From Lutibacter citreus (lineage in GTDB: Bacteria > Bacteroidota > Bacteroidia > Flavobacteriales > Flavobacteriaceae), in NCBI RefSeq assembly GCF_003260195.1, contig NZ_QEIH01000007.1:62001-126000 (forward strand): a DNA stretch of 64,000 nt. Reading direction: 5' to 3'. The number at the start of each line of letters is the position of its first letter. Position 1 is the first letter of the stretch. Shown here piece by piece: positions 48,869 through 64,000 of the stretch. Under the pieces are notes generated by a model that saw only the letters and a program-made list of their open reading frames with translations, was not told the origin of the DNA and did not search any database. Made by a program: the position numbers and the translations under genes.

Positions 48869-49258
48869 ATGAACAAAAAATTACTGCTTATTATTAGAAT
48901 TGTTATTGCAATTCTATTAATTCAAACTTTACGTTTTAAATTCACCGCACACCCAGATAGCGTTTACATATTCACAAAAGTTGGATTAGAACCATTTGGT
49001 AGAATCACAATTGGAATGATTGAATTAATTGCAGCTATTTTAGTTCTAATTCCTAAAACAGTTTGGGCAGGAGCTTTATTAACTTTTGGTGTTATATCTG
49101 GTGCAGTTTTAATGCATTTAACACTACTTGGAATAGAGATAAACAATGATGGAGGTTTACTATTCTTTATGGCCTTATTCTTGTTTTTATTGAGTTTAAT
49201 AGTCCTTTGGTGTGAACGGAAAAAAATCCCTATAATTGGAAAATTAATAAAGTTTTAA
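48869..49258 (+). CDS. DoxX family membrane protein
   Basis: A 129 aa protein with four membrane helices (about residues 5-20, 45-65, 68-90 and 95-115) and the DoxX-like features IRIVIAILLIQTLRFKF, FTKVGLEPFGRI and GMIELIAAILVLIP. DoxX homologues include a subunit of archaeal thiosulfate:quinone oxidoreductase and many of unknown role. Its TAA overlaps the stop of the convergent cytochrome gene. Proximity to the sulfur locus is suggestive, but it reads toward the locus without being part of its operons. Confidence 0.85.
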   Translation: MNKKLLLIIRIVIAILLIQTLRFKFTAHPDSVYIFTKVGLEPFGRITIGMIELIAAILVLIPKTVWAGALLTFGVISGAVLMHLTLLGIEINNDGGLLFFMALFLFLLSLIVLWCERKKIPIIGKLIKF

Positions 49259-51150
49259 TCCCAATTTGGCAGCACGCATTTATCACTAATTTGGTTCATT
49301 AAAGGTTTCAATCCTATTATTAAACTTTTATTCATTACTTTAGAATCTTCTTTATGGCATTGTAAACAAGCCCCAACTGTTAATAATTCTTTTTGTTCTT
49401 TTAATGTAAACGGTCTAAAATCTGTTCTGGTTGAATTTACCTGTCCTATTGAACTTTCGGTTAAAAATGGCACCCAAGCATCTTCTGGTAAATTATCATT
49501 CTCATTTAAAGCGTATTCAGCTTTAAAATGCCACTTACCTACTCCTTTATTAATTTCATAAACTAAAGCTCCATTTCCATAACCTAAAGTAGCTGGGTTT
49601 GAATGACAGCTTTTACAATCTCTTGCCTTTGAAATAGTTGTATGTGGTGAATTTGGCGCATACAATCTATGAAAAGATACATCATCGCCAAGTTCTTTTC
49701 CTACATAACTCCCTTTGTCAATAGTTAAAATCATACCAGGAACAGCAGGTTCAATTTTCTTTACCTCTCCATTCTCGCGAACTCCCATAGCAGGAAGAGA
49801 TGAACTAAATTCGGCTACAAATTCTTTCCATTGTCCTTTTTTATACTTTTTATCTAACAAATCAAAGGCTCTTGGCTCATTTTTATCATATTCATTATGA
49901 CAGCCAATACAACGTGAAGTCCAAGAAGAATGACAAGTAGAACAACTAACATTTTTGTGTACATTATCTCGTGAACATATTTCACTTTGAGGGTTCATTT
50001 TATGTAATTCCCCATCTTTTTTACCTATTAGAAATGCATTCCCAACAGAATCAATAAAAGTATTTACAAGTGGATGCCCTCCATTTTTTACCGAAATAAT
50101 TTGTTTGTCATTATGAGAATATTCTCTATGCATGAATACCAATATACTTTCAATATCTAATGAATCATAAGGCATGGTATTAGGCTGATCTTTAAAGTGA
50201 CAATCCGAACATTGAACCATAACTGCTTGTTCTTCATGTGTATATTTTTTACCATCTCCCATAACTTCATGAGAAGAATGACAATCAATACATAACAATC
50301 CTTTAGTATGGTGCACATCTTCCTCAATATACTTATACACACGCTTGTCCTCCATTACTTCATAGCCAGTTTTATCAATAATTTCATCTTCATCTAATAA
50401 AGTTTCTTGTAACCCTTCATAATTTGTGGAAATTCTACTAGATCTACTATGACATCCAAAACAATGCTCATTTGTTATAAAAATATCTGTTGATGGGTGC
50501 GCCTCTGGTAATTTTGTTTTGTTCGAAGTAATATATGTCTGAAGATCTTTTGTTGCTTCTGTTGAATAATTTAAATGACAGGCATTGCAACCTCCACCTC
50601 TACTTAATTGAGTAATTGCCCCAAAATCCTTTTTCTCTGCTCCCAAATGACAATTTGCACATAAATCACGTAAATGGTTATCAGATGCTGAATTCTTAAT
50701 TTGTTGAATATGATACTGATAATTTGGTGAATCAGCCTCTCCAAAAATATATTTATCTACTGCAACCAAACCACTATTGGTAGTCATTAAAGAATTTTTA
50801 ATTTTATGAAGTTCTTTTGGGTGACATTTTCCACAAGTTTGCCCTGCATCATTCAGATTTCCCGGAATTAAAACCATTCCTTTATGTGATTCAGCCTTAT
50901 CATTTGTGGTTGTATTCCCTAAATGACAACTTGAACAACCAATTAAATCTGGATTATGATACTTGGAATATCCCTTTGTATTCTCATGACATTTTAAACA
51001 AGATTCTTTTAAATTGTTTTCAATAATTGTATAATTTTCATCTTCAACAATTATGGAATTTATAGTATTCACATTCTTAAGAATATAAAACAATGCAATT
51101 CCAACAATAACAACCAATAAAAACCAAAATATAGAACCCTTTTTCTTCAT
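49255..51150 (-). CDS. Twelve-haem membrane-anchored cytochrome c
   Basis: A 631 aa protein with an uncleaved-looking N-terminal membrane helix (residues 8-24) and a periplasmic part carrying twelve CxxCH haem-binding motifs. The first is CLKCH at 51-55 and the last CLQCH at 595-599. There are five before residue 200, then CFGCH, CIDCH, CSDCH, CSTCH, CIGCH, CKSCH and CLQCH, with many non-motif His available as distal ligands. I do not recognise a named family of this length and haem number. It is divergent from the Mo-enzyme operon with which it shares a control region, so I infer that it passes electrons between the quinone pool and a periplasmic sulfur (or other) redox enzyme, or is itself a reductase. 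Confidence 0.88.
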   Translation of the reverse strand: MKKKGSIFWFLLVVIVGIALFYILKNVNTINSIIVEDENYTIIENNLKESCLKCHENTKGYSKYHNPDLIGCSSCHLGNTTTNDKAESHKGMVLIPGNLNDAGQTCGKCHPKELHKIKNSLMTTNSGLVAVDKYIFGEADSPNYQYHIQQIKNSASDNHLRDLCANCHLGAEKKDFGAITQLSRGGGCNACHLNYSTEATKDLQTYITSNKTKLPEAHPSTDIFITNEHCFGCHSRSSRISTNYEGLQETLLDEDEIIDKTGYEVMEDKRVYKYIEEDVHHTKGLLCIDCHSSHEVMGDGKKYTHEEQAVMVQCSDCHFKDQPNTMPYDSLDIESILVFMHREYSHNDKQIISVKNGGHPLVNTFIDSVGNAFLIGKKDGELHKMNPQSEICSRDNVHKNVSCSTCHSSWTSRCIGCHNEYDKNEPRAFDLLDKKYKKGQWKEFVAEFSSSLPAMGVRENGEVKKIEPAVPGMILTIDKGSYVGKELGDDVSFHRLYAPNSPHTTISKARDCKSCHSNPATLGYGNGALVYEINKGVGKWHFKAEYALNENDNLPEDAWVPFLTESSIGQVNSTRTDFRPFTLKEQKELLTVGACLQCHKEDSKVMNKSLIIGLKPLMNQISDKCVLPNWD

Positions 51151-51166
51151 AAGTAATACTTATAAC

Positions 51167-51174
51167 AAAGCTAC
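51167..51174 (-). promoter_or_regulatory. Possible -7 box of the 12-haem cytochrome gene
   Basis: TAGCTTTG on the minus strand matches TAnnTTTG and lies 16 bp before the start codon at 51150, so the leader would be short. Confidence 0.45.
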
Positions 51175-51290
51175 AACATTTTAAAATCTTCAATAAAACT
51201 GAAATTATCGCATAAACACCTTAGGATTAGTTGTTTTAGTGGGTTTAGCTACATTTGTTACATTTTAAAAACTCAGTATCAATGCCTTAT

Positions 51291-51304
51291 GTAACCTATG
51301 TTAC
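51291..51304 (+). promoter_or_regulatory. Distal Crp/Fnr-like palindrome before the Mo-enzyme operon
   Basis: GTAAC-CTAT-GTTAC is a perfect 5-4-5 inverted repeat, the geometry of Crp/Fnr-family operators. It lies in the divergent region between the cytochrome and Mo-enzyme genes. Its centre is 32 bp (three helical turns) upstream of the next palindrome. The preceding CCTTATGTAAC string recurs at 57837-57847. Confidence 0.6.
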
Positions 51305-51322
51305 TATGCCTGTTTAGGTTTT

Positions 51323-51336
51323 ATGACTTTTGTCAT
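51323..51336 (+). promoter_or_regulatory. Proximal Fnr-like palindrome before the Mo-enzyme operon
   Basis: ATGAC-TTTT-GTCAT is a perfect 5-4-5 inverted repeat similar to the Fnr site TTGAT-N4-ATCAA. Its centre is 29.5 bp before the start of the -7 box at 51359, giving about -43 relative to the expected transcription start, where class II Fnr activators bind. Confidence 0.68.
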
Positions 51337-51358
51337 ACTATAAAGTTACTCTTGTAAA

Positions 51359-51366
51359 TATCTTTA
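51359..51366 (+). promoter_or_regulatory. -7 box of the Mo-enzyme operon
   Basis: TATCTTTA, one mismatch from TAnnTTTG, followed by CAT. The same TAtnTTTACAT string is found before the tandem-rhodanese gene at 57923. No TTG lies at the normal -33 distance, consistent with an activator-dependent promoter. Confidence 0.55.
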
Positions 51367-51389
51367 CATTAAAACAAACAAATAACCAT

Positions 51390-53633
51390 ATGACTACTTC
51401 AAGAAGAAAATTTATTAAAATTTCAGCTTTGGGTTTAGGAGGTGTTGCAGCAACAACAAGTGCCATTAATATGTTTGGTTCAAATTCATATTTAAATACG
51501 CTTGTAAAAGAAAATGTTGGTGAAAAATTTAAAATTACTCCTACTTATTGCGAAGTTTGTTTTTGGAAATGTGCTGCTTGGGCATATACCAACGAGGACG
51601 GAGAAATCAAAAAAATTATTGGTAATGAAGATGACCCACACTGTCATGGACGCTTATGTCCTAGAGGTACAGGTGGTGTAGGAATGTATACTGATGAAGA
51701 CCGTTTAAAAACTCCATTAATTAGAACAACTGTTAATGGCGAAGAAACTTTTAGAGAAGCTAGTTGGGATGAAGCTTTAGATTTAATTGCCTCAAAATTT
51801 AACGGAATAAAAGAAAAACATGGTGCCGAATCTCTAGCTTTACTAAAACATGGATGCCCTGGTTGGCATTTTGAACATTTATATAAATCTCTTGGTTCTG
51901 ATACTATAGCTGAGCCTGCTTACGCACAATGTAGAGGTCCTAGAGAAACTGGTTTTGCTTTAACTTTTGGTTCTTGGGTAGGTTCTCCCGAACCAACTGA
52001 TATTAGAGATACAAAATGTTTGGTGTTAATAGGCTCTCATATTGGAGAGAATATGCACAATTCTCAAGTACAAGAAATGTCTGATGCTATTGATAATGGA
52101 GCAACCATTATTACTGTTGACCCTCGTTTTTCAACCGCGGCAAGTAAATCAAAACATTGGTTAGCAATTAAACCTTCTACAGACATAGCATTATTACTTT
52201 CTTGGATGCATGTATTAATTAAAGAAGAATTATATGATAAAGAATATGTAGAAAAATATGGTTTAGGTTTTAATGAATTAAAAGAATATGTACGTCAATT
52301 TACACCAGAATGGGCCTACGGAATTACAACAATTAAACCAGAAGAAATTAGAAAAACTGCTAGAGCAATGGGGCATGCAGCTCCAGCTGCAATTGTTCAT
52401 CCAGGCCGTCATGTGGTTTGGTATGGAGATGATACCCAACGAGAAAGAGCCATTGCTATTTTAAATGGTTTATTAGGTTCATGGGGAAGACGTGGTGGAT
52501 TCTATTTTAAAGAAAAAATTAATGTTCCTAATTTTCCACATCCAGCATATCCAGAACCAAAATGGGGTTGGAAAGAAATTGGAGAAAATTTTCCATTAGC
52601 TCAAATGGGAATCACAAATGAATTAATAAACGCCTCAATACCAAATAAAAACAACAAATACCCTATTAAAGCATGGATGGTTGCTGGAACAAATTTAATT
52701 AAATCAATTCCTGATACAATACAATTAAAAAAGGCAATGGACGCTTTAGATTTTTTAGTTGTTATAGATACTATGCCTACAGACATTACTGGTTATGCTG
52801 ATGTTATTTTGCCAGAATGTACTTATTTAGAACGTTCAGATATTGTACGTTCAGCAACCAACAGACAACCTTCTATTGCTGTTAGATTTGCCGCTGTCAC
52901 TCCTAAATACAACTCTAAACCAGGAGCTTGGATAGCAAAAGAAATAGGCGAACGTTTAGGCTTAAGCAAATATTATAATTATAAAGATTTTGATGAGGTA
53001 ATTGATTGGCAACTGAAAGAATTAGGAACTTCAAAAGAAGAGATGGCAAAAATTGGCGTAAAAAGATACCCAAGAAAATCTGGACCAATGTATTTAAATG
53101 AGGATGAAACACATCAATTTGGAACAGCTAGTGGCAAAATAGAATTTTACTCTCAAGAATTAAAAGATCTAGGTTTTGACCCAATGCCAACCTATACAGC
53201 ACATCCTGAACCACCTCAAGGATTTTATAGATTAAACTATGGTAGATCTCCTATGCACACTTTTAGTAGAACAGCAAATAATCCTAATTTAAATGCCCTT
53301 AAAAGTGAAAATAACCTATGGGTTAACCCTAAAGTTGCTCGAATTTTAGGTCTAAAAACCAATCAAAAAGTTTGGTTAAAAAATCAAGACGATATTATTT
53401 CAAACTTTTCAATAAAGGTTAGAGTCACAGAAAGAATACGATGGGATTCTGTTTATATGGTGCATGGTTTTGGTCATGATAATAAAAAATTAACACGGGC
53501 TTATGGGAAAGGAATAGATGATACTAAAATGATTTCAAAAATATTTGTAGATCCAATAATGGGTGGAACAGGTATGAGAGGAAACTTTGTTTCAATTTTA
53601 ACTGAAAACCCACATAAAAACACTGAGATATGA
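51390..53633 (+). CDS. Tat-exported molybdopterin oxidoreductase, PsrA/PhsA-like
   Basis: A 747 aa catalytic subunit of the DMSO reductase superfamily. The start is the ATG at 51390, directly before a Tat signal (SRRKFIK, residues 4-10); an upstream TTG at 51330 lies inside the palindrome and is rejected. A [4Fe-4S] site is formed by C54-x2-C57-x3-C61 and C90, and C181 (QCRGPRETG) is the probable Mo ligand. The arrangement with ferredoxin and NrfD subunits is that of polysulfide/thiosulfate/tetrathionate reductases. The active site should face the periplasm. Its last bases overlap the next gene (ATGA). The exact substrate is uncertain; arsenate or sulfite enzymes are less likely alternatives. 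Confidence 0.87.
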   Translation: MTTSRRKFIKISALGLGGVAATTSAINMFGSNSYLNTLVKENVGEKFKITPTYCEVCFWKCAAWAYTNEDGEIKKIIGNEDDPHCHGRLCPRGTGGVGMYTDEDRLKTPLIRTTVNGEETFREASWDEALDLIASKFNGIKEKHGAESLALLKHGCPGWHFEHLYKSLGSDTIAEPAYAQCRGPRETGFALTFGSWVGSPEPTDIRDTKCLVLIGSHIGENMHNSQVQEMSDAIDNGATIITVDPRFSTAASKSKHWLAIKPSTDIALLLSWMHVLIKEELYDKEYVEKYGLGFNELKEYVRQFTPEWAYGITTIKPEEIRKTARAMGHAAPAAIVHPGRHVVWYGDDTQRERAIAILNGLLGSWGRRGGFYFKEKINVPNFPHPAYPEPKWGWKEIGENFPLAQMGITNELINASIPNKNNKYPIKAWMVAGTNLIKSIPDTIQLKKAMDALDFLVVIDTMPTDITGYADVILPECTYLERSDIVRSATNRQPSIAVRFAAVTPKYNSKPGAWIAKEIGERLGLSKYYNYKDFDEVIDWQLKELGTSKEEMAKIGVKRYPRKSGPMYLNEDETHQFGTASGKIEFYSQELKDLGFDPMPTYTAHPEPPQGFYRLNYGRSPMHTFSRTANNPNLNALKSENNLWVNPKVARILGLKTNQKVWLKNQDDIISNFSIKVRVTERIRWDSVYMVHGFGHDNKKLTRAYGKGIDDTKMISKIFVDPIMGGTGMRGNFVSILTENPHKNTEI

Positions 53634-54163
53634 GATATGCAATGGTTATAGACACGCTAAAATGTGTTGGGTGTAGTGACTGCGTAGTTGCTTGTCAAAC
53701 AGAAAATGATGTCCCTATTGGATATTGTAGAGATTGGGTAACAGAAAACGTAAGTGGCTCTTATCCATCTATTGAATTAGAACTAAAATCTGAACGATGC
53801 AATCATTGTGAAAATGCACCATGTGTACGTTGTTGTCCAACAGGAGCAAGTCATCAATTAAACAATGGAATTGTATTAGTTACAGCCGATGAATGCATTG
53901 GTTGTGGGGCTTGTATTGAATCTTGTCCTTATGATGCTCGTTACCAACACCCAGATGGTTATGTTGATAAATGTACTTTTTGTCATCATAGATTGGAAAA
54001 AGGTCAACTTCCTGCTTGTGTAGCTGTTTGCCCTACAAAATGTATGTATTTTGGAGATCTAGACAATCAAAATAGCGAAGTTTCTAAATTGTTAAAAAAC
54101 AGAAAATGGAAAACTTTAGCCCCTGAAGCTGGAACAAAACCTAAAGTTTATTATCTAATTTAA
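53630..54163 (+). CDS. Four-cluster ferredoxin subunit, PsrB-like
   Basis: A 177 aa electron-transfer subunit with four cysteine groups for [4Fe-4S] clusters: CVGCSDCVVAC, CNHCENAPCVRCC, CIGCGACIESC, and CTFCHHRL with the later CVAVCP. This is the PsrB/DmsB/NrfC pattern, linking the Mo subunit to the membrane subunit. There is no own Tat signal, so it is exported with the catalytic subunit. It overlaps the Mo-enzyme gene by four bases and precedes the NrfD gene by 10 bp. Confidence 0.92.
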   Translation: MRYAMVIDTLKCVGCSDCVVACQTENDVPIGYCRDWVTENVSGSYPSIELELKSERCNHCENAPCVRCCPTGASHQLNNGIVLVTADECIGCGACIESCPYDARYQHPDGYVDKCTFCHHRLEKGQLPACVAVCPTKCMYFGDLDNQNSEVSKLLKNRKWKTLAPEAGTKPKVYYLI

Positions 54164-54173
54164 TCGTTCAATT

Positions 54174-55115
54174 ATGCAAGAAGAATTAATTACAAGCGGA
54201 AGAAATATTCCCAATATAGATCCTTTTTTAGATATTTGGCATTGGCCTATTTCAGTCTATTTATTTTTAGGAGGTTTAGCTGCTGGACTATTATTTTTTG
54301 CAGCTTTAATTACAATATTAAAAAAGGATAAAGAATATCCTGCTGCAGTTAAATTTGCATCCATAGTATCTCCAATAGCTTTAACCTTAGGATTATTGGC
54401 TTTATTTTACGATTTAACTCATAAAATATATTTCTGGAGATTATATACTACTGTAAGAATAGAATCTCCAATGAGCTGGGGAGCTTGGGTACTTTTAATT
54501 ATAACTCCTGTATCTTTTTTATGGGTATTAAGTTATTATTCTGAATTGTTCCCTAAATTTAAATTGAATTTTAAATTTTTAAAGAAATTTGAATCATTTC
54601 TTCAAAAAAACAGACTCTTAATGGCTTATATTTTATTACCATTATCTGTTGTTTTAGGTGTTTACACTGGTATTTTACTATCAGCATTCAATGCAAGGCC
54701 ACTATGGAACAATGCTATTTTAGGCCCGTTGTTTTTAATCTCGGGATTATCTACCGGAGCTGCAACAATTATATTATTATCAAAATCAACAAAAGAACGT
54801 CATTTATTTAGTAAAATAGATTTAGGCTTGGTAATTTTAGAATTAGGATTAATTGTACATATGATGATGGGAATGTACGCAGGTTCTCAAGTACAATTAG
54901 AAGCTATGCAATTATTAATAGGCGGAGAATTTACAATGATGTTTTTTGGATTTGTTGTAATTCTAGGTTTAATAGTTCCTGCAATTTTAGAATTTTTAGA
55001 GTTAAGAGGTTTTAAAATTCCCGTAGCAGTTCCTGCCCTATTAATATTATTAGGAGGTTTAATCTTCCGTTTTGTTATGGTTGAAGCTGGTCAAATTACA
55101 CGTTATCTTTATTAA
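54174..55115 (+). CDS. NrfD/PsrC-family quinone-interacting membrane subunit
   Basis: A 313 aa integral membrane protein with about eight helices, the first near residues 22-45 (WPISVYLFLGGLAAGLLFFA) and the last near 283-303. This is the NrfD/PsrC fold, which exchanges electrons and protons with menaquinol and has no haem. With the two preceding subunits it forms a PsrABC-like complex. It is followed 13 bp later by the first YeeE/YedE gene. Confidence 0.9.
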   Translation: MQEELITSGRNIPNIDPFLDIWHWPISVYLFLGGLAAGLLFFAALITILKKDKEYPAAVKFASIVSPIALTLGLLALFYDLTHKIYFWRLYTTVRIESPMSWGAWVLLIITPVSFLWVLSYYSELFPKFKLNFKFLKKFESFLQKNRLLMAYILLPLSVVLGVYTGILLSAFNARPLWNNAILGPLFLISGLSTGAATIILLSKSTKERHLFSKIDLGLVILELGLIVHMMMGMYAGSQVQLEAMQLLIGGEFTMMFFGFVVILGLIVPAILEFLELRGFKIPVAVPALLILLGGLIFRFVMVEAGQITRYLY

Positions 55116-55128
55116 AAAACATATAACT

Positions 55129-55656
55129 ATGAAAGTTACAGAAAAAAATAGACATATTTATTGGAACCCATATTTTGGAGGTTTTCTATTAGGTTTAATT
55201 GTCCTTTTCACCTTCTATACAACAGGAAGAGGTCTTGGTGCTAGTGGCGCCATGAAAAGTAGTGTTGTTGCAGTGGTTGAACAAGTTGCGCCATCACATG
55301 CTGAAAACAATGCGTATTACAGCAAATTTATAAGTGAAGATAAATCGCCATTAAATACCTGGTTAATATTTGAAGTTATTGGAATGTTAATTGGAGGAAT
55401 GATTTCAGGTGGATTATCTGGAAGAATAGGCTGGAGAGTTCAACATTCACCTAAAATTACAAAAAGAAGAAGATTGTACTTTGCATTAGGTGGCGGAATG
55501 CTATTTGGGATTGGTGCCCAAATTGGTAGAGGTTGTACAAGCGGTGCTGCTTTAAGTGGTATGTCTGTATTATCTGTAGGTGGTTTTCTAATTACTATTA
55601 CCATTTTTGGTACTGGTTATTTAGCAGCTTATTTCTTTAGAAAAAACTGGATTTAA
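55129..55656 (+). CDS. YeeE/YedE family protein, first half-transporter
   Basis: A 175 aa membrane protein starting at the ATG at 55129; an upstream TTG inside the NrfD gene is rejected. It has an N-terminal helix pair (GFLLGLIVLFTFYTTGRGLG), a periplasmic loop, and a second half containing the family motif GAQIGRGCTSGAALSG with the only Cys of the protein. In full-length relatives such as TsuA the conserved Cys residues relay thiosulfate across the membrane. This is the first of two adjacent half-size genes, which I infer assemble into one sulfur-compound channel. Confidence 0.88.
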   Translation: MKVTEKNRHIYWNPYFGGFLLGLIVLFTFYTTGRGLGASGAMKSSVVAVVEQVAPSHAENNAYYSKFISEDKSPLNTWLIFEVIGMLIGGMISGGLSGRIGWRVQHSPKITKRRRLYFALGGGMLFGIGAQIGRGCTSGAALSGMSVLSVGGFLITITIFGTGYLAAYFFRKNWI

Positions 55657-55676
55657 TTAATTAAAAAATAATATTT

Positions 55677-56267
55677 ATGGGACCTTTAATTCCAAACGGT
55701 GTAATTCCTTATGAATGGAATAACATTTTAGCCATTTTAATTGGTATTGCCTTCGGGTTTGTTTTAGAATCTTCAGGATTTTCTTCGTCAAGAAAACTTG
55801 CTGGAGTATTCTACGGTTATGATTTTGCAGTGCTTAAAGTCTTTTTTACAGCAGCTGTTGTAGCCTCAATTGGCTTATACTATATGGATTACCTTGGGTA
55901 TATTAGTGTAGGAGAATTATATGTTCAACCTACTTATTTATGGGGAGCAATAATTGGAGGAGCAGTTATGGGAGTTGGATTTGTAGCTGCAGGATTTTGT
56001 CCCGGAACGGCAATAACATCTGTAGCAATAGGCAAAATTGATGCAATGGTATACATAGTTGGAATAATGATTGGAGTTTTCATTTTTTCTGAATTCTATA
56101 CACTTTTCCAACCTTTATATGAAGGATCTTATTTAGGAAATATTACAGTAGTTGACTACTTTGGAGTAAATCCATATATATTTATTTTCTGCTTAACTAT
56201 TGTGGCTTTACTAGCCTTCTTCTTTACTGATATGATAAGAAAAAAAGTTAAAAAAGTTTTTTATTAA
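55677..56267 (+). CDS. YeeE/YedE family protein, second half-transporter
   Basis: A 196 aa membrane protein with features GFVLESSGFSSSRKLAGVFYGYDF and the Cys motif VAAGFCPGTAITSVAIGK, the second half of the YeeE/YedE repeat. Helices are near residues 12-30, 55-75, 90-110, 120-140 and 165-185. It lies 20 bp after its partner. The pair sits in one operon with the Psr-like complex and the rhodanese-fold proteins, which supports transport of thiosulfate, sulfane sulfur or a similar ion; direction and substrate are inferred. Confidence 0.88.
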   Translation: MGPLIPNGVIPYEWNNILAILIGIAFGFVLESSGFSSSRKLAGVFYGYDFAVLKVFFTAAVVASIGLYYMDYLGYISVGELYVQPTYLWGAIIGGAVMGVGFVAAGFCPGTAITSVAIGKIDAMVYIVGIMIGVFIFSEFYTLFQPLYEGSYLGNITVVDYFGVNPYIFIFCLTIVALLAFFFTDMIRKKVKKVFY

Positions 56268-56283
56268 TACAACCTATTGAATT

Positions 56284-56937
56284 ATGAAAACAAAAAAATT
56301 AATAGCTCCAAGATACCTTTTTCTTTCAGCAATTCTTATAATACTTGCGGGAGGTTTGGTTTTAATACCAAAATTTGAAAAACATGAAGGAATTTCTCCT
56401 GAATTATTATTAAGTAATGCCATTAGTCCAGAACGTTATATTTCTACTGATGAATTAGCCGATAGATACATTAGCAGAGATCCTACAATTTTATTAATAG
56501 ATGTAAGAGATGAAAGTAGTTTTAATGAAAATACGTTACCAAATTCCGTAAATATTCCTTTAAATAAATTATTAGATGAAAATTTTGATGCTTATTTAAA
56601 CCAAACAGCATACGATGTTATTTTATTTTCTAATGACAGCTTTAAAGCAAATCAAGCTTGGATTTTATGTAACAGATTAGGCTACAAAAATTTACACGTA
56701 TTAAAAGGAGGAATAAACGAATGGTTTAGTACTATAATTAACCCAAAAGAACCAACTGAAAACATGCCAAAAACAGCATTTGAATTGTATTCATTCAGAA
56801 AAGCAGCAAGTATGTATTTTGGTGTAATGTACGAAGATCAACTAAAAATAGCGGTTCCTAAAAAAACTAAAACAACTCCAAAACTTGTTATTCCTATAAA
56901 GAAAAAGAAGAAAATACCAACTGAAGGAGGTTGTTAA
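56284..56937 (+). CDS. Membrane-anchored rhodanese-fold protein without catalytic Cys, with Cys-terminated tail (copy 1)
   Basis: A 217 aa protein with an N-terminal membrane helix (about residues 11-29) and a rhodanese-like domain (about 53-150: LLIDVRDESSF, LPNSVNIPL, VLKGGINEW). At the active-site loop, where rhodaneses have Cys, the sequence is FSNDSFKA, with S116 in place of Cys, so normal sulfur transfer there is not expected. The only cysteines are C129 (in a helix) and the last residue. The protein ends VIPIKKKKKIPTEGGC, almost identical to the end of the protein at 57043-57666. I infer a scaffold whose C-terminal Cys arm binds sulfur, metal or a partner. Confidence 0.85.
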   Translation: MKTKKLIAPRYLFLSAILIILAGGLVLIPKFEKHEGISPELLLSNAISPERYISTDELADRYISRDPTILLIDVRDESSFNENTLPNSVNIPLNKLLDENFDAYLNQTAYDVILFSNDSFKANQAWILCNRLGYKNLHVLKGGINEWFSTIINPKEPTENMPKTAFELYSFRKAASMYFGVMYEDQLKIAVPKKTKTTPKLVIPIKKKKKIPTEGGC

Positions 56938-57042
56938 TTTTAACGCTAATTTATAATAAAACAAGTATGTACAATTTTCATACATCAGGGAATTACTAAT
57001 AGCGCCACCCTGTGTTACCTATTAAAATAAAAATGTAGACAC

Positions 57043-57666
57043 ATGAAAGAACTTGAAAAAACAAAAAATATATCAATAGCTGCTGTAATTACTATTTTAC
57101 TTGTAATAATTGCTTTACTTGCTTATAAAAAACCGAAACATTTATATGCAATTAATACGAAACAAGCTTTAAAACAAATAGTTGAAAACCCTCCTATTCA
57201 GTTAAATAATTACAATCCTAAAACTGCTATTTTAATAGACATTAGAAATCAATATGAATATGAAAAAGGTCATATAGAAAATGCTATAAACATTCATTCT
57301 TCAGATATTTTAGATGATGCTAACTCCATATTTTTTAAAAAACTTAAAGAAGATAATAAATCCATAGTTTTATACGGTAATGAACCTTCCGAGGCAATAA
57401 GCGCTTCAATGATTTTACACCAATTAGGATATAGTAATGTTAAAATATTAGCAGTAAATAATTCATTAAATCAAGATAAGTTAATTACAACTCCTGTTGA
57501 AATTGAAAAAAAAGGAGAAAACATAAATCAGTTTATAAAAGCTTCTATTAAAAAAGTAAATGAATTAAGTGATGTTCAGATAAAACCCAAACCTATAAAG
57601 GTTATACCCAAAAAAGTTATTCCTATAAAGAAGAAAAAGAAAATGCCTACCGAAGGAGGTTGTTAG
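57043..57666 (+). CDS. Membrane-anchored rhodanese-fold protein without catalytic Cys, with Cys-terminated tail (copy 2)
   Basis: A 207 aa protein with a membrane helix (residues 9-28) and a shorter rhodanese-like domain (about 60-137: ILIDIRNQYEYEKGHIENAINI). The active-site loop reads LYGNEPSEA, with Gly at the Cys position. The single cysteine of the whole protein is its last residue, in the tail VIPIKKKKKMPTEGGC. Outside the tail it resembles copy 1 only weakly, so the tail is the part under strongest constraint. It is 105 bp after copy 1 and is closed by a strong terminator. Confidence 0.83.
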   Translation: MKELEKTKNISIAAVITILLVIIALLAYKKPKHLYAINTKQALKQIVENPPIQLNNYNPKTAILIDIRNQYEYEKGHIENAINIHSSDILDDANSIFFKKLKEDNKSIVLYGNEPSEAISASMILHQLGYSNVKILAVNNSLNQDKLITTPVEIEKKGENINQFIKASIKKVNELSDVQIKPKPIKVIPKKVIPIKKKKKMPTEGGC

Positions 57667-57668
57667 TT

Positions 57669-57708
57669 AAAAAAAAAAGAGTGGTTATGTATAACCACTC
57701 TTTTTTTT
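57669..57708 (+). terminator. Strong terminator ending the Psr-like operon
   Basis: AAGAGTGGTTAT and ATAACCACTCTT form a perfect 12 bp stem around GT, with long A and T tracts on the two sides. It separates the operon from the tandem-rhodanese unit. Confidence 0.92.
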
Positions 57709-57842
57709 ATATCAAATAAGTACCATTTTTTTTATCTTTTTTTTGTTTTTATCCAAGTATAAAAAACTTCGGTCTAATTAACCAATTTGTTATCCCCTAC
57801 TCAAAACAACAACCTATAGATTATTTATTGCTAACTCCTTAT

Positions 57843-57856
57843 GTAACTTTAGTTCC
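57843..57856 (+). promoter_or_regulatory. Distal Crp/Fnr-like half-conserved site
   Basis: GTAAC-TTTA-GTTCC matches the palindrome at 51291-51304 except for one base in the right arm, and both are preceded by CCTTAT. Its centre lies 44 bp upstream of the centre of the proximal site. Confidence 0.45.
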
Positions 57857-57885
57857 AAAAGAGAATGAATATATATAAGGTTTTA

Positions 57886-57901
57886 TATGATAAAAATCAT
57901 A
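57886..57901 (+). promoter_or_regulatory. Proximal Fnr-like palindrome before the tandem-rhodanese genes
   Basis: TATGAT-AAAA-ATCATA is a perfect 6-4-6 inverted repeat close to the Fnr consensus. Its centre is 29.5 bp before the start of the -7 box at 57923, exactly the spacing found before the Mo-enzyme operon. Confidence 0.68.
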
Positions 57902-57904
57902 GAG

Positions 57905-57918
57905 CGAAAACGTTTTCG
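57905..57918 (+). promoter_or_regulatory. Perfect palindrome CGAAAACGTTTTCG
   Basis: A 14 bp perfect palindrome with a central CG, similar in form to LacI/PurR-family operators. It lies between the Fnr-like site and the -7 box, so a protein bound here would block RNA polymerase. No LacI-family gene is in the window. Confidence 0.5.
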
Positions 57919-57922
57919 TAAC

Positions 57923-57930
57923 TATATTTA
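57923..57930 (+). promoter_or_regulatory. -7 box of the tandem-rhodanese unit
   Basis: TATATTTA followed by CAT, nearly identical to the box at 51359-51366. It lies 35 bp before the ATG at 57966. Confidence 0.55.
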
Positions 57931-57965
57931 CATAAGACAAGTAAAACAATTTAAAACAACATCTT

Positions 57966-58952
57966 ATGAAAAAATCAACATTTTATTTTGTGCTATTTTT
58001 TGCAGTTACATCTATATTTAGCAGCTTCAAAAATTCTGAAAAACAACCCGACCTACCTCTTTCTGAATTTGAACTTTTAGTTCAATATTTAGAAAATAAT
58101 GGAAATTTTATAAATACAGTTTCACCTGCTTTAGTTGATGCTCAAGAAATTAAAGAAAATTTAAAAAATGAAAAATATCTAGTATTAGATATTAGAAGTG
58201 CTGACTGGTTTGATTATGGTCATATTAAAAAATCTCAAAACCTTAAAGCAGAAGAATTATTAACATACTTAGATAATAAAATTAATGCCGCATCTTATGA
58301 TAAAATAACTATTGCTTGCTATTCAGGCCAATCCGCAGCATATTATACAAGTTTACTCCGTTTTTATGGATTTAATAATGTGTATAGCTTAAAATGGGGA
58401 ATGAGTTCTTGGGACCAAGAATTTGCAACAAACAGTTGGGTTAAAAATGCTAAAGATGAGTTTTCTGACCAATTAGAAAAAACTACAAATGCAAAACCTG
58501 AAAAAGGAGTAACTCCAATATTATCTACTGGTAAAATGGATGCTCAAGAAATTTTAAAAACTCGTATTAAAGAAGCCTTCACAAAGCCTTACAAAGAATC
58601 TTTAGTGAAATCTGCAATTGCAATTGAAAATCCTCAAGATTATTTTATTGTTAATTACACTCGTAACGAAGTATATAGTGCAGGCCATATAAAAGGTGCA
58701 ATTCATTACGAACCTAACAAATGTTTAAGTTCTAAAACTAACTTATTTACGCTTCCTTCAGATAAAAAAATTGTTATTAACTGTGATACAGGTTTACATG
58801 CAGCGTATGCAGTAGCTTATTTAAAAATACTTGGGTATGACGCTTACAACATGCCGTATGGTTCAAATAGTTATATGAATTCAATAATGGTTGAAAAAAA
58901 CTGGAATGGTTGGAGTAAAAATGAAATTAAAAACTTTCCTGTGGTAGAATAA
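57966..58952 (+). CDS. Exported tandem-rhodanese sulfurtransferase
   Basis: A 328 aa protein with an N-terminal signal sequence (about residues 1-20) and two rhodanese domains. The first has LDIRSADWFDYGHI and the active-site loop ACYSGQSA with C118; the second has AGHIKGAIHYEP and the loop NCDTGLHAA with C273. Both catalytic cysteines are present, unlike the two upstream rhodanese-fold proteins. It should carry or transfer sulfane sulfur in the periplasm. It is 43 bp upstream of a paralogue and starts a new transcription unit with an Fnr-like site. Confidence 0.88.
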   Translation: MKKSTFYFVLFFAVTSIFSSFKNSEKQPDLPLSEFELLVQYLENNGNFINTVSPALVDAQEIKENLKNEKYLVLDIRSADWFDYGHIKKSQNLKAEELLTYLDNKINAASYDKITIACYSGQSAAYYTSLLRFYGFNNVYSLKWGMSSWDQEFATNSWVKNAKDEFSDQLEKTTNAKPEKGVTPILSTGKMDAQEILKTRIKEAFTKPYKESLVKSAIAIENPQDYFIVNYTRNEVYSAGHIKGAIHYEPNKCLSSKTNLFTLPSDKKIVINCDTGLHAAYAVAYLKILGYDAYNMPYGSNSYMNSIMVEKNWNGWSKNEIKNFPVVE

Positions 58953-58995
58953 ACTCAACATAATTACAAGGTTAACATCCAAAAACAAGCAAATC

Positions 58996-59997
58996 ATGAA
59001 AAAAATATCTTATTTATTAATCGCTCTTTTTATTGTTCCCACACTCCTTCTTACTTCTTGTGATAAAGGAGATGACACTTTAGTTGATAGCACACCTGCT
59101 TTTACTTTAATGAAAGATTATTTAATTAACAACGGTATGGATATTAATAAAATAATAACCAATGCTGATGGAGAAAAATTTGTGGTTGGGCCACCAGCTA
59201 CTGCAACTGATGTTCCTGCATATATTGCAAAATATACGATACTTGATATTAGAAGTTCTGAAGATTTTAAGGCTGGACATATTGAAAGCGCTAAAAACAT
59301 TGCTTTCAAAACTATTTTATCTGAAGCCGCAGTTGCCTCTAAACCAATTTTAATGGTATGTTATACCGGACAAACCGCGTGTTATGCAACAGCTCTATTA
59401 CGCCTTTATGGTTATACACATACTAAAGCTCTAAAATGGGGAATGTCTGGGTGGAACCCAAATAACGCCGGTCCATGGAATAGTAAAATTAATGCTCAAG
59501 AAGCTTACGGTCATGCAAATTGGACTTATGGAAGTACTCCTTCTCACAATGTTTTTGGAGACCCAGTAATTACTACCTTAGCTACAAATGGTTTAACAAT
59601 TCTTAAAAACCGTATAGAAGCAGCTGTTGAAACTGGTTTTAAAACTGTTAAAGGAACAGATGTTCTTAATAACCCAAACAATTATTTTATAAACAATTAC
59701 TTCTCTGAAGCTGATTACGGTGCATTTGGTCATATTGATGGTGCTCATAGAATACTTCCATTAACATTAGCTGATAATAGTTATAAAGGAATAGATCCAA
59801 CTCCAGGAGCAAAAATAGTTACATATTGCTATACTGGGCAAACTTCAGCTGTAGTAACAGCTTGTTTAAATGTACTTGGTTATGATGCTTATAGTTTAAC
59901 ATTTGGAATGAATGGTATGTTTAATACAAATACAGCTTGGAAATCAAACCAATGGGGTGTTGACAGCAATCCAAAAAATTTACCCTTAACAAACTAA
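58996..59997 (+). CDS. Tandem-rhodanese lipoprotein
   Basis: A 333 aa paralogue of the preceding protein, but with a lipoprotein signal (LLLTSC, lipidated C22). The two active loops are VCYTGQTA with C122 and YCYTGQTS with C278. The domain ends share ALKWGMSGW with SLKWGMSSW in the neighbour, so the genes arose by tandem duplication. It is expected to sit in the outer membrane or the inner-membrane outer leaflet and to bind sulfane sulfur there. The porin gene follows after 60 bp. Confidence 0.88.
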   Translation: MKKISYLLIALFIVPTLLLTSCDKGDDTLVDSTPAFTLMKDYLINNGMDINKIITNADGEKFVVGPPATATDVPAYIAKYTILDIRSSEDFKAGHIESAKNIAFKTILSEAAVASKPILMVCYTGQTACYATALLRLYGYTHTKALKWGMSGWNPNNAGPWNSKINAQEAYGHANWTYGSTPSHNVFGDPVITTLATNGLTILKNRIEAAVETGFKTVKGTDVLNNPNNYFINNYFSEADYGAFGHIDGAHRILPLTLADNSYKGIDPTPGAKIVTYCYTGQTSAVVTACLNVLGYDAYSLTFGMNGMFNTNTAWKSNQWGVDSNPKNLPLTN

Positions 59998-60057
59998 TAT
60001 TTTAAATTAATTAGCCCAAAAATTAAAGAATTTTAAGGCTTTTAAAGATCTATAATT

Positions 60058-61104
60058 ATGAGAACAAAAATAACTATTATACTCGCTTTTATTTTTGTGT
60101 TACAATTCAACACAACTTTTGCACAGGGGTGTGAAGATGATGTTACACCAACAGGAACTACTGGAGTACCATCAACAAGTAGTAATACTTTTTTTGGATA
60201 TATTCAACCAGAATATGATTCACACTTCACAGACCCCAGTGAAAATACTTTTAAATTTAAAAGAGCTCGATTTGGTGTTCGCGGAAGAATAAACAGATCC
60301 TTTTCTTACTATGCAATGATTGAAACTAGCGATTTTATTGCTTCTGATGGAAATGTTTATTTAATGGATGCCTTTGTTACATATGATAAACATGAATGGA
60401 CTAAATTCTCTTTAGGATCTTTCAAACAACCATTTGGATTAGAGGTTAGCACAGCTTGTCATTCTTTATCAACAATTGATAGAGCAATAGTTTCAGATCA
60501 AATTGTTGCACCTCAAAGAGATTTAGGTTTAATGATGTTAGGTGGTACTAGTAAAACAAAATTCCGTTATTCTATAGCTTTAATGAATGGAACAGGGTTA
60601 GGTTTAAAAGATAACAACACTAAAAAAGATATTATAGGACGAGCTTCTTATAAATTATTTGATTTTATGACTTTAGGAGGAAGTTTTAGATATGGACATC
60701 CAAATACAAAAGATAAAGATAGAACTACTTATGGCGGAGAAGTTTTAATTACCTATAACGCTTTAAAAGTTCAGGGAGAATACATTTATGATGAAGGTGA
60801 TTACAACCGCGCTGCTGAAGGAGGATGCGGATCTGTTCCTTTAGAATTAGGAGATGAAAGAGCGGGAGCTTATGTTATGGTAACTTATGATATAGACGAA
60901 AAAATTCAACCTGTTTTTAAATATGAATACTTCGATCAGGATTTAGGTATTAAGAAAATAGGATATCAAGAAATGATGACAATTGGTGTAAATTATTTTG
61001 TAAGTAAAAACACTAGAATACAAGTAAATTATCAAAATAAAATTGAAACAGGATTAACAATTGATAATGATGCTCTATTAATGCAACTACAAGTTAAATT
61101 TTAA
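60058..61104 (+). CDS. Porin O/P family outer membrane channel
   Basis: A 348 aa protein with a signal peptide ending near TTFAQG, followed by a beta-barrel of the OprO/OprP type: FFGYIQPEYDSHF, FKRARFGVRGRINRSFSYYAMIE, LGSFKQPFGLE, and a C-terminal strand ending in KF. Family members are often anion-selective. Its position after the tandem rhodaneses and before the Crp-like regulator suggests uptake of an anionic sulfur substrate, an inference. A short Cys-containing stretch at the N-terminus (QGCEDDVTP) is unusual for such barrels. A terminator follows. Confidence 0.85.
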   Translation: MRTKITIILAFIFVLQFNTTFAQGCEDDVTPTGTTGVPSTSSNTFFGYIQPEYDSHFTDPSENTFKFKRARFGVRGRINRSFSYYAMIETSDFIASDGNVYLMDAFVTYDKHEWTKFSLGSFKQPFGLEVSTACHSLSTIDRAIVSDQIVAPQRDLGLMMLGGTSKTKFRYSIALMNGTGLGLKDNNTKKDIIGRASYKLFDFMTLGGSFRYGHPNTKDKDRTTYGGEVLITYNALKVQGEYIYDEGDYNRAAEGGCGSVPLELGDERAGAYVMVTYDIDEKIQPVFKYEYFDQDLGIKKIGYQEMMTIGVNYFVSKNTRIQVNYQNKIETGLTIDNDALLMQLQVKF

Positions 61105-61126
61105 AAATATAAGATTCTATGAACTT

Positions 61127-61157
61127 AAAAACTCCTTTGTAATATAAGGAGTTTTTA
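61127..61157 (+). terminator. Terminator after the porin gene
   Basis: AAAAACTCCTT and AAGGAGTTTTT form a hairpin followed by a short T-run, closing the tandem-rhodanese/porin unit. Confidence 0.82.
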
Positions 61158-61173
61158 ATCCTTATTTTTTTTG

Positions 61174-61181
61174 TAAATTTG
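61174..61181 (+). promoter_or_regulatory. -7 box of the Crp/Fnr-like regulator gene
   Basis: TAAATTTG matches TAnnTTTG and lies 23 bp before the start codon at 61204. No Fnr-like palindrome is seen at the spacing found in the two target promoters. Confidence 0.55.
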
Positions 61182-61203
61182 ATTTAAAATAAAAAAGAAA
61201 AAG

Positions 61204-61860
61204 ATGACTAATGATAAAGTTTTACTTAGAGAAAAATTAGATGATTATTTCACTTCAATTTTTGAACCTAAACTAATAGATGAAATTATTGATAATGGTA
61301 TATTCAGAACTATTGAAAGTCATGAATTATTACTAGACATTGGAGATAAAATGACACATGTTCCATTAATTATAAGTGGGGCTGTAAAAATTATTCGTGA
61401 AGATAAAAACGGTGATGAGATTTCTTTATATTTTTTAGAAAAAGGTGATACCTGCGCTATTTCATTTATAAATTGTATAAACAAAACAGAAAGTATGTTT
61501 AGAGGTATTACTGAGGTAAAAACTGAGGGTATCTTTATTCCTGTTGATAAGATTGATGAATGGCTGGTAAAATATGAAACTTGGAGACATTTTATTATAG
61601 ATAGCTATCATTTAAGATTGATTGAAATGGTAGATTCTATTGATAGTTTAGCCTTTATGAAACTAGATGATAGACTTCATAAATACTTAACTGAAAAAGT
61701 TAAAGTGCTACATGACAATATTATACATATCACTCATCAAGAAATTGCTGATGATATTAATACGTCAAGAGTTGTTGTGTCTCGTTTATTAAAAATCTTA
61801 GAAAAACAAGGTAAAATAAGAATTAAAAGAAATAGAATAATTATAGATCATATGGAATAA
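61204..61860 (+). CDS. Crp/Fnr family transcriptional regulator
   Basis: A 218 aa regulator with an N-terminal cyclic-nucleotide-binding-like beta-roll (residues 30-130) and a C-terminal winged helix. The recognition helix region is HQEIADDINTSRVVVSRLLK; it keeps the Ser-Arg pair that Fnr uses to read the inner bases of its site but lacks the Fnr Glu. There is no N-terminal four-Cys cluster, only two cysteines in DTCAISFINC. It lies at the end of the sulfur locus, and the Fnr-like palindromes at 51323 and 57886 are its most likely targets. The signal it senses is unknown. Confidence 0.9.
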   Translation: MTNDKVLLREKLDDYFTSIFEPKLIDEIIDNGIFRTIESHELLLDIGDKMTHVPLIISGAVKIIREDKNGDEISLYFLEKGDTCAISFINCINKTESMFRGITEVKTEGIFIPVDKIDEWLVKYETWRHFIIDSYHLRLIEMVDSIDSLAFMKLDDRLHKYLTEKVKVLHDNIIHITHQEIADDINTSRVVVSRLLKILEKQGKIRIKRNRIIIDHME

Positions 61861-61882
61861 TTACTCTATTTCTATTATATTT

Positions 61883-63895
<2,013 letters not shown>

Positions 63896-63944
63896 TTAAT
63901 GTGGATTTTCCGTTATTAAAAATAACAACAAAACGAAGTGTATT

Positions 63945-64000
63945 TTACTGTCCTAATTTTATTCCTTCTTCAGAAATAGTAATCAGTTTTTGACGAAATA
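63945..64000 (-). CDS. 3' end of an unidentified gene
   Basis: On the minus strand the last bases are open and read FRQKLITISEEGIKLGQ followed by TAA at 63947-63945. The composition looks coding, and the other two frames are closed. The gene begins outside the window. With 17 residues I cannot name it. Confidence 0.5.
   Translation of the reverse strand, partial: FRQKLITISEEGIKLGQ

Follow-up and report, generated by a model that had tools for sequence, protein, structure and literature searches.

RhoA and RhoB, two paralogous rhodanese-fold proteins encoded side by side in the window (the whole stretch of 64,000 nucleotides that was analysed), have lost the catalytic cysteine of rhodaneses but share a C-terminus, VIPIKKKKK(I/M)PTEGGC, that ends in a cysteine. 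Such a tail-end cysteine on degenerate rhodaneses is real, widespread and preserved at the protein level; the rhodanese domain without its loop cysteine is constantly linked to the importer genes and frequently fused to YedE2, and some forms carry an export signal. It is considered fairly probable, at about 60%, that RhoA and RhoB are periplasmic, membrane-tethered sulphur carriers with the working thiol on the arm, serving the YedE1-YedE2 importer (YedE1E2). A Bacteroidota protein of this kind, without an active cysteine but with one at the tail end, is probably a swinging arm that hands over sulphur outside the inner membrane, since it occurs nearly always beside a sulphur importer.

Table 1. 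Features of the RhoA/RhoB locus, with positions in the window
Feature	Positions	Strand	Description
c-type cytochrome, 12 CXXCH	49255..51150	-	ExtM-like, below that model's cut-off
PsrA-like molybdopterin subunit	51390..53633	+	N-terminal SRRKFIK, Tat-like by eye
PsrB-like 4Fe-4S subunit	53630..54163	+	domain searches
PsrC/NrfD-like membrane subunit	54174..55115	+	domain searches
YedE1, half-size YeeE/YedE importer	55132..55656	+	PF04143, RGCTSG
YedE2, other importer half	55677..56267	+	PF04143, GFCPGT
RhoA	56284..56937	+	one N-terminal TM helix, rhodanese domain, Ser116 in place of the catalytic Cys, Lys-rich flexible tail with final EGGC (Cys217)
RhoA tail codons	56887..56934	+	VIPIKKKKKIPTEGGC, 16 residues
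RhoB, paralogue of RhoA	57043..57666	+	N-terminal TM helix, rhodanese domain, Gly112 at the catalytic-Cys place
RhoB tail codons	57616..57663	+	VIPIKKKKKMPTEGGC, 16 residues
RhoC, two rhodanese domains	57966..58952	+	first domain with intact catalytic loop CYSGQSA
RhoD, second tandem rhodanese	58996..59997	+	CYTGQTA
Phosphate-selective-porin-like protein	60058..61104	+	PF07396
Crp-type regulator	61204..61860	+	

The rhodanese family PF00581 has been assigned to RhoA (56.8 bits) and RhoB (57.2 bits) against a cut-off of 22.2; no other Pfam family, hence neither PF13501 nor a DsrC-type domain, matches either protein at E<=1. The place of the catalytic cysteine is occupied by Ser116 in RhoA (FSNDSFKA) and by Gly112 in RhoB (LYGNEPSEA), as had been noticed in an earlier sequence-only reading of this DNA. 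In the AlphaFold2 models, computed from 15 related sequences for RhoA and 11 for RhoB, these two residues close the strand leading into the active-site loop. In both models a single N-terminal helix precedes the rhodanese domain, and the tail behind it has low confidence; RhoB shows no structure element past residue 177. The RhoA model is moderately confident (mean pLDDT 72.7) and the five models span 72.7 to 44.4, which counts against the preferred reading. Rhodaneses are the best Foldseek matches of the RhoA model, and the nearest named relatives of RhoA belong to Lutibacter (Flavobacteriaceae). The same reading had described the shared tail and the final residue of RhoB as its sole cysteine, and both are confirmed: RhoB contains one cysteine, residue 207, and RhoA two, residues 129 and 217.

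The EGGC tail of the two proteins is not due to chance. The codon pattern GAR-GGN-GGN-TGY-TAR occurs twice in the 5.1-Mb genome, exactly at rhoA and rhoB, and a control pattern reading it backwards occurs once. Homologues have been identified in three samples of genomes. RhoA is encoded in 54 of 395 genomes of the phylum sample (45 of 171 genera) and in 33 of 397 genomes of the family sample (22 of 237 genera). In the genus-centred sample of 60 genomes, which includes its own, RhoB has matches in 33 at E<=1e-6, four of which (G016, G023, G037 and G052) are weak and on the level of other rhodaneses. From the phylum search for RhoA 54 of the 58 rows, representing 51 genomes, have been analysed, the rows of G000, G091 and G239 being treated separately.

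The last cysteine is the final or penultimate residue in all 54 of these phylum loci (51 genomes), even where the profile match ends far short of the tail. The catalytic position of the same relatives is occupied by Ser (19), Ala (17), Gly (15), Cys (2, in L154 and L188) or Asp (1), so that the catalytic cysteine is absent in 52 of 54. With 54 of 54 tails and 2 of 54 loops carrying it, the loop cysteine is mostly lost and the tail cysteine kept. The endings seen are EGC, GGC, RMGC, FQC, GGCG, GGCA, GGCS and GGCT. A basic run ahead of the ending is usual and not universal in the phylum loci; the tail VKVEVEEGGC of L103 indicates that the lysines are dispensable, which counts against the preferred reading.

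Of 60 other rhodaneses, taken from 15 genomes that encode an arm, none has a cysteine in the last two residues; this control was hand-chosen, excluded the arm proteins, RhoC and RhoD of the locus, two rows with internal TGA, second domains and some low-scoring rows, and had its ORFs picked mechanically. Among the mechanical ORFs of the control stretches 8 of 264 end in this way. In the family, the tail cysteine is present in 63 of 63 distinct RhoA proteins (blastp >60 bits) and in 51 of 56 closed RhoB ORFs. Two of the five exceptions (L047, L097) are frame-broken with a readable tail and three (L039, L041, L043) are truly tail-less. The latter form is kept in three related genomes (L039/L088, L041/L091, L043) and counts against a carrier role. 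The counts of phylum endings, loop residues, the 60 controls, YedE1 loci negative for RhoA, locus types and family RhoA and RhoB are independent of the choice of tail, and the homologues behind them are kin and not independent trials.

The sequence-only reading had named two findings that would speak against a sulphur carrier. The first, homologues of the same context lacking the terminal cysteine, is seen in the three genomes with tail-less RhoB and at none of the 54 phylum loci. The second, tails scattered on unrelated proteins, is not observed in the genome of origin, where both EGGC ends lie at this locus, or among the 60 other rhodaneses. The comparisons made thus support the idea that these proteins may act as sulphur carriers.

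In the window the cytochrome gene is followed by PsrA-PsrB-NrfD, YedE1, YedE2, RhoA, RhoB, RhoC, RhoD, the porin-like protein and the Crp-type regulator. The best solved match of PsrA is 2vpw (611 bits, residues 4-736), an entry named thiosulphate reductase which we take to be the Thermus polysulphide reductase; PsrA remains below the PhsA equivalog cut-off (459 bits vs 694). The importer halves, of 174 and 196 residues, score 75.4 (YedE1) and 55.4 bits (YedE2) with PF04143 and do not reach the cut-off of 400 of the NCBIfam model TsuA (38.4 and 22.9 bits). A pattern search has recognised their conserved cysteines as RGC.SG in 87 of 92 YedE1 ORFs and as GFCPGT or GYCPGT in 90 of 92 YedE2 ORFs. 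The cysteine is still present in both missed YedE2 ORFs and in at least two missed YedE1 ORFs (GGCTSG; HGCTSG in L106), the other YedE1 misses being a partial ORF (L088) and two ORFs that were read incompletely (L109, L110). RhoC, whose loop is of CYSGQSA type in most of the rows shown, is a candidate loader of the arm; the RhoD loop pattern is matched in 10 of 16 and missed in 6 of 16.

The 12-CXXCH cytochrome, encoded on the strand opposite to the Psr operon, scores 243 bits with Geobacter ExtM (cut-off 800). Together with RhoC/RhoD and the porin it is reminiscent of the ext cluster (PMC5877670; papers given by PMC number are cited from excerpts of their text). Selenium was considered but is not assigned as the substrate, the NCBIfam ExtM-like cytochrome and selenium-transporter-like YedE matches being all below their cut-offs (PMC5877670). 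The gap of 105 bases between rhoA and rhoB (56938-57042) has small possible hairpins by eye, and ATGAAATGAGCATA-like stretches occur in this gap in several relatives. Rfam assigns no structured RNA to it; the five matches in 49000-64000 are all below the gathering scores and all outside the gap.

The link of the terminal-Cys tail to YeeE/YedE importers, first proposed from the window, extends over the phylum. The YedE1 of the window as query identifies 67 places in 64 of 395 phylum genomes, and an intact arm gene adjoins YedE1 at 66 of them; the 67th has a frame-broken copy (L294, in G731). Conversely, 53 of the 54 RhoA genomes also have YedE1, G239 being the exception. Eleven YedE1 genomes have no RhoA match. 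Ten of these encode a comparable terminal-Cys protein, the weakest (L287) scoring 21.6 bits to the profile, and in the eleventh, G731, a different frame encodes the tail KKKKREGC. In the own genus, G036 and G019 without RhoB carry a fused form with a terminal cysteine (L298, L299), and G007 and G020 have neither RhoB nor a YedE1 match. Three genomes (G239, G411 and G281) keep the RhoA/RhoB tails and Psr with no YedE1 match at E<=1e-6; the importer is therefore not indispensable, which counts against the carrier reading. Conserved neighbours could also reflect one inherited operon instead of direct contact.

Two main locus types have been identified, one comprising PsrABC, YedE1, YedE2 and the rhodanese, the other an octaheme cytochrome, cytochrome b, YedE1 and a YedE2-rhodanese fusion. 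Among 67 classified loci (54 of the phylum, 11 from the RhoA-negative YedE1 genomes and two of the same genus), 24 have adjoining Psr subunits, 37 have cytochrome b and/or the octaheme cytochrome and 6 are unassigned. The association with a Psr-like enzyme suggested by the sequence-only reading thus holds for the former 24, Psr being replaced in the 37, and YedE1E2 is the more constant partner. Of the 37, 17 include the octaheme gene itself; the remaining 20 stretches, of about 4.5 kb, end before its expected position. Two loci have been scanned with TIGR04315 (octaheme tetrathionate reductase family, cut-off 375) and score 567.6 (L145) and 588.1 bits (L157). In 36 of the 37 octaheme-type loci YedE2 is joined to the arm rhodanese in single ORFs of 395-533 residues (32 recognised by motif, 4 by length), and the three inspected fusions keep an extra helix, like the RhoA anchor, between the two parts.

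The octaheme type occurs at L145:11396-12988, L157:5608-7179 and similar loci, with a cytochrome b561-like protein, and in L145, L152 and L157 a MerR-like gene lies upstream by eye. Five of the six unassigned loci are stretches of 3.4-4.6 kb. In the sixth, L288 (6.5 kb), YedE1 is adjoined by a tandem rhodanese without a Psr or octaheme enzyme, and a third locus type may therefore exist. L288 (G584), L161, L173 and L178 have an RMGC-ending variant next to YedE1/YedE2, and the stretches read there contain neither a Psr nor an octaheme gene.

The arm could instead be devoted exclusively to the respiratory enzyme of the periplasm (Psr or the octaheme cytochrome) and supply it with bound polysulphide, as proposed for Sud and the Psr of Wolinella, the YedE genes of the operon having a function of their own. 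One or the other kind of enzyme gene (Psr 24, octaheme/cytochrome b 37) lies beside the arm gene in 61 of 67 loci; the three genomes without a YedE1 match also keep Psr and both tails. The enzyme family nevertheless switches between loci whereas YedE1/YedE2 are constant, the rhodanese is fused to YedE2 with no enzyme-subunit fusion seen among the loci inspected, and neither enzyme is found in the stretch read at six loci. An arm devoted to the enzyme is hence regarded as unlikely.

That the bodies of RhoA and RhoB have diverged more than the tail, as noticed in the window, is a general feature of the pairs. Body identity within a genome averages 27% (19-31%, 48 pairs). The last 12 residues agree at 10.96 positions within a genome vs 8.09 across genomes, a value reached by 0 of 2000 permutations, which ignore phylogeny and use 48 pairs in which both proteins were required to have a cysteine among their last two residues. 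Unusual endings are common to both paralogues, namely TGGGC in L101, GGCG in L105-L108 and GGGDEGC or SGGDEGC in L109 and L110; in L105 one tail is common to RhoA, RhoB and the tandem rhodanese RhoC. The closer match within genomes and this trio suggest a common docking partner. Tandem rhodaneses can bear the arm too, as a RhoC-like one of L035 (G052, which belongs to a different family of the order) ends KKKKAVKRKKKAVSGGCG. In L041/L091 a RhoC-like tandem rhodanese adjoining the octaheme cytochrome ends VQEGGC.

The codons of paired tails agree more than random (0.70 vs 0.52), so that some gene conversion is possible, and those of the window read AAGGAGGT. The tails might then be an artefact at the level of DNA, as gene-conversion tracts or as a Shine-Dalgarno-like site, GAAGGAGGT, the peptide having no role. 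However, the peptide variants GGCG, EGC, RMGC and GGCS preserve the cysteine, and in the window rhoB starts 106 bases past the end of rhoA. EGGC is encoded by 19 codon combinations among 72 tails, in a codon table which, like the alignments, takes in only ORFs ending EGGC; this variation rules out the Shine-Dalgarno reading of GAAGGAGGT and indicates conservation of the peptide rather than of a DNA signal. An artefact of this kind is extremely improbable.

The pairing of RhoA and RhoB with the same tail would also suit a redox or structural thiol that carries no cargo and that tethers or regulates a complex by a disulphide, in a RhoA-RhoB dimer or with a cysteine of the transporter or enzyme. 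In an oxidising environment a lone free cysteine would be prone to disulphide formation, and SoxYZ cross-links via its arm cysteine (PMC5336275). This role is considered improbable in view of the setting of sulphur import and sulphur enzymes. Pairing of paralogues is moreover not general, exactly one arm protein being present in 66 of the 67 classified stretches and none in the broken L294.

The arm is very probably periplasmic. The N-terminus of RhoA is Lys-rich ahead of its helix, the RhoB equivalents of L105-L108 and L048 have by eye a lipobox-type signal (e.g. LLLTACNN) with the tail kept, and YedE2 ends in a Lys/Arg run beyond which the fused forms add one helix. All three point to this side of the membrane. 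Lipoprotein, Tat and topology calls were made by eye and with a hydropathy script. A periplasmic tail, which the sequence-only reading had allowed, is now favoured by the lipobox-type forms and by the fusions with an extra helix.

In L105 the same tail occurs on TM-anchored, lipoprotein-type and tandem-rhodanese proteins, as expected for a modular tag of sorting, retention or assembly, read by another protein and with the cysteine as anchor. Known C-terminal sorting signals include a hydrophobic stretch, which is absent from the tail, and in the own genome EGGC ends are confined to this locus. The tail is constant across different anchors and hence seemingly not needed for localisation, and we regard a tag as very unlikely.

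The sequence-only reading had compared the tail with DsrC/TusE. The likeness in the C-terminal Cys arm stands, but the closest functional analogue is the periplasmic SoxY with its GGCGG arm. DsrC/TusE carries sulphur on a C-terminal Cys arm, is cytoplasmic and has a fold other than rhodanese; RhoA and RhoB contain no matching Pfam domain. The periplasmic SoxY has a flexible arm with a Gly-flanked cysteine at its C-terminal end (GGCGG; PMC6067878), and this cysteine binds sulphur cargo on the swinging arm (PMC5336275, PMC6067878). A Gly-flanked C-terminal Cys arm is found in the window (EGGC) and in L105-L108 (GGCG), and the tail variants VTGGCG/VSGGCG resemble the VTIGGCGG tails of SoxY from six phylum genomes. 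Genes of YeeE and of octaheme tetrathionate reductase have been found in the neighbourhood of divergent SoxYs (PMC11237559). RhoA and RhoB differ from SoxY in their rhodanese domain and in having no match to PF13501, which does match elsewhere in the phylum; the RhoA type also has a membrane tether or importer fusion, and its cysteine is mostly the very last residue. SoxY is present in 45 of 395 phylum genomes and shared by one (G458) of the 64 YedE1 genomes, the other 63 having no SoxY match. This near-separation mostly follows lineage, since SoxY is confined to four genera. The arm rhodanese would thus work like SoxY and be no member of the SoxY family.

The importer resembles YedE1E2/PmpAB, in which two half-size proteins have one conserved cysteine each. 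Import of zero-valent sulphur is reported for the Cupriavidus pair and as likely for the Sinorhizobium pair, YedE1E2 needing one cysteine in each half (PMC10812762). In contrast, the halves of the window are longer (174 and 196 residues vs about 14-15 kDa), are accompanied by the arm rhodanese and lie beside respiratory sulphur enzymes, whereas yedE1E2 is linked with a persulphide dioxygenase in that paper (PMC10812762). TsuA-TsuB (YeeE-YeeD) likewise combines an importer of the YeeE/YedE family with a dedicated Cys-bearing sulphur-handling partner, the two being one protein in some species (PMC11073785). TsuB/YeeD is however TusA-like (PMC11582611) and presumed to be active at the cytoplasmic face, and the partner in the window is a degenerate rhodanese, apparently periplasmic. 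For Desulfurivibrio dismutans a route from polysulphide via a periplasmic rhodanese and YeeE/YedE into the cytoplasm has been proposed, with a porin nearby; its Psr-operon rhodanese differs in having three rhodanese domains, and a terminal-Cys arm is not mentioned in the excerpt (PMC12142623).

Based on these comparisons, we infer a cargo, its direction, the partners touched by the arm and a chemistry. The rhodanese domain, its own nucleophile lost, would serve as a body, with the working thiol at the tip of the arm, which is long and flexible. The cysteine there would take up sulphane sulphur as a persulphide, polysulphide or thiosulphonate. The source would probably be polysulphide made or used by the Psr-type enzyme (the octaheme cytochrome in sister loci), or the rhodaneses RhoC/RhoD with their catalytic cysteine retained. 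The arm would then reach YedE1E2 at its periplasmic mouth, and the two conserved cysteines of the importer would pass the sulphur into the cytoplasm, an action like that proposed for SoxY and SoxT. Transfer from the SoxY cysteine to SoxT has been discussed with doubts (PMC11582611). In Lutibacter profundi thiosulphate did not stimulate growth despite reported polysulphide reductase genes (PMC5219744), which would count against the carrier reading if that strain has the locus.

A wider proposal, to which we give slightly less than even odds, is that these proteins form an unnamed phylum-wide class of periplasmic carriers, in which the nucleophile has moved from the loop to a C-terminal arm and which is built onto or fused into YedE1E2 with interchangeable Psr-type and octaheme enzymes. 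If so, relocation of the nucleophile would have converted an enzyme fold into a carrier, and the class would be a Bacteroidota counterpart of SoxYZ-SoxT and a missing link for the passage of periplasmic polysulphide to the cytoplasm. Among the excerpts of open-licence papers searched, none describes a rhodanese arm with a terminal cysteine or a fusion of YedE2 with a rhodanese. How periplasmic sulphur reaches importers of the YeeE/YedE family is treated as an open question (PMC11582611). With a candidate carrier arm covalently tied to one importer half in many genomes, this question can be put to the test with a single fused protein. The combination of degenerate rhodanese, terminal cysteine and YedE1 also provides a simple sequence rule for sulphur-shuttling operons in many families of Bacteroidota.

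A plasmid collection queried with the L145 fusion gave two records, which match residues 25-202 and 14-151, i.e. the YedE2 part. Two rhodanese matches (G484:C7:171145-171414 and G688:C11:21889-22161) are broken by one TGA each and are possible selenoprotein rhodaneses.
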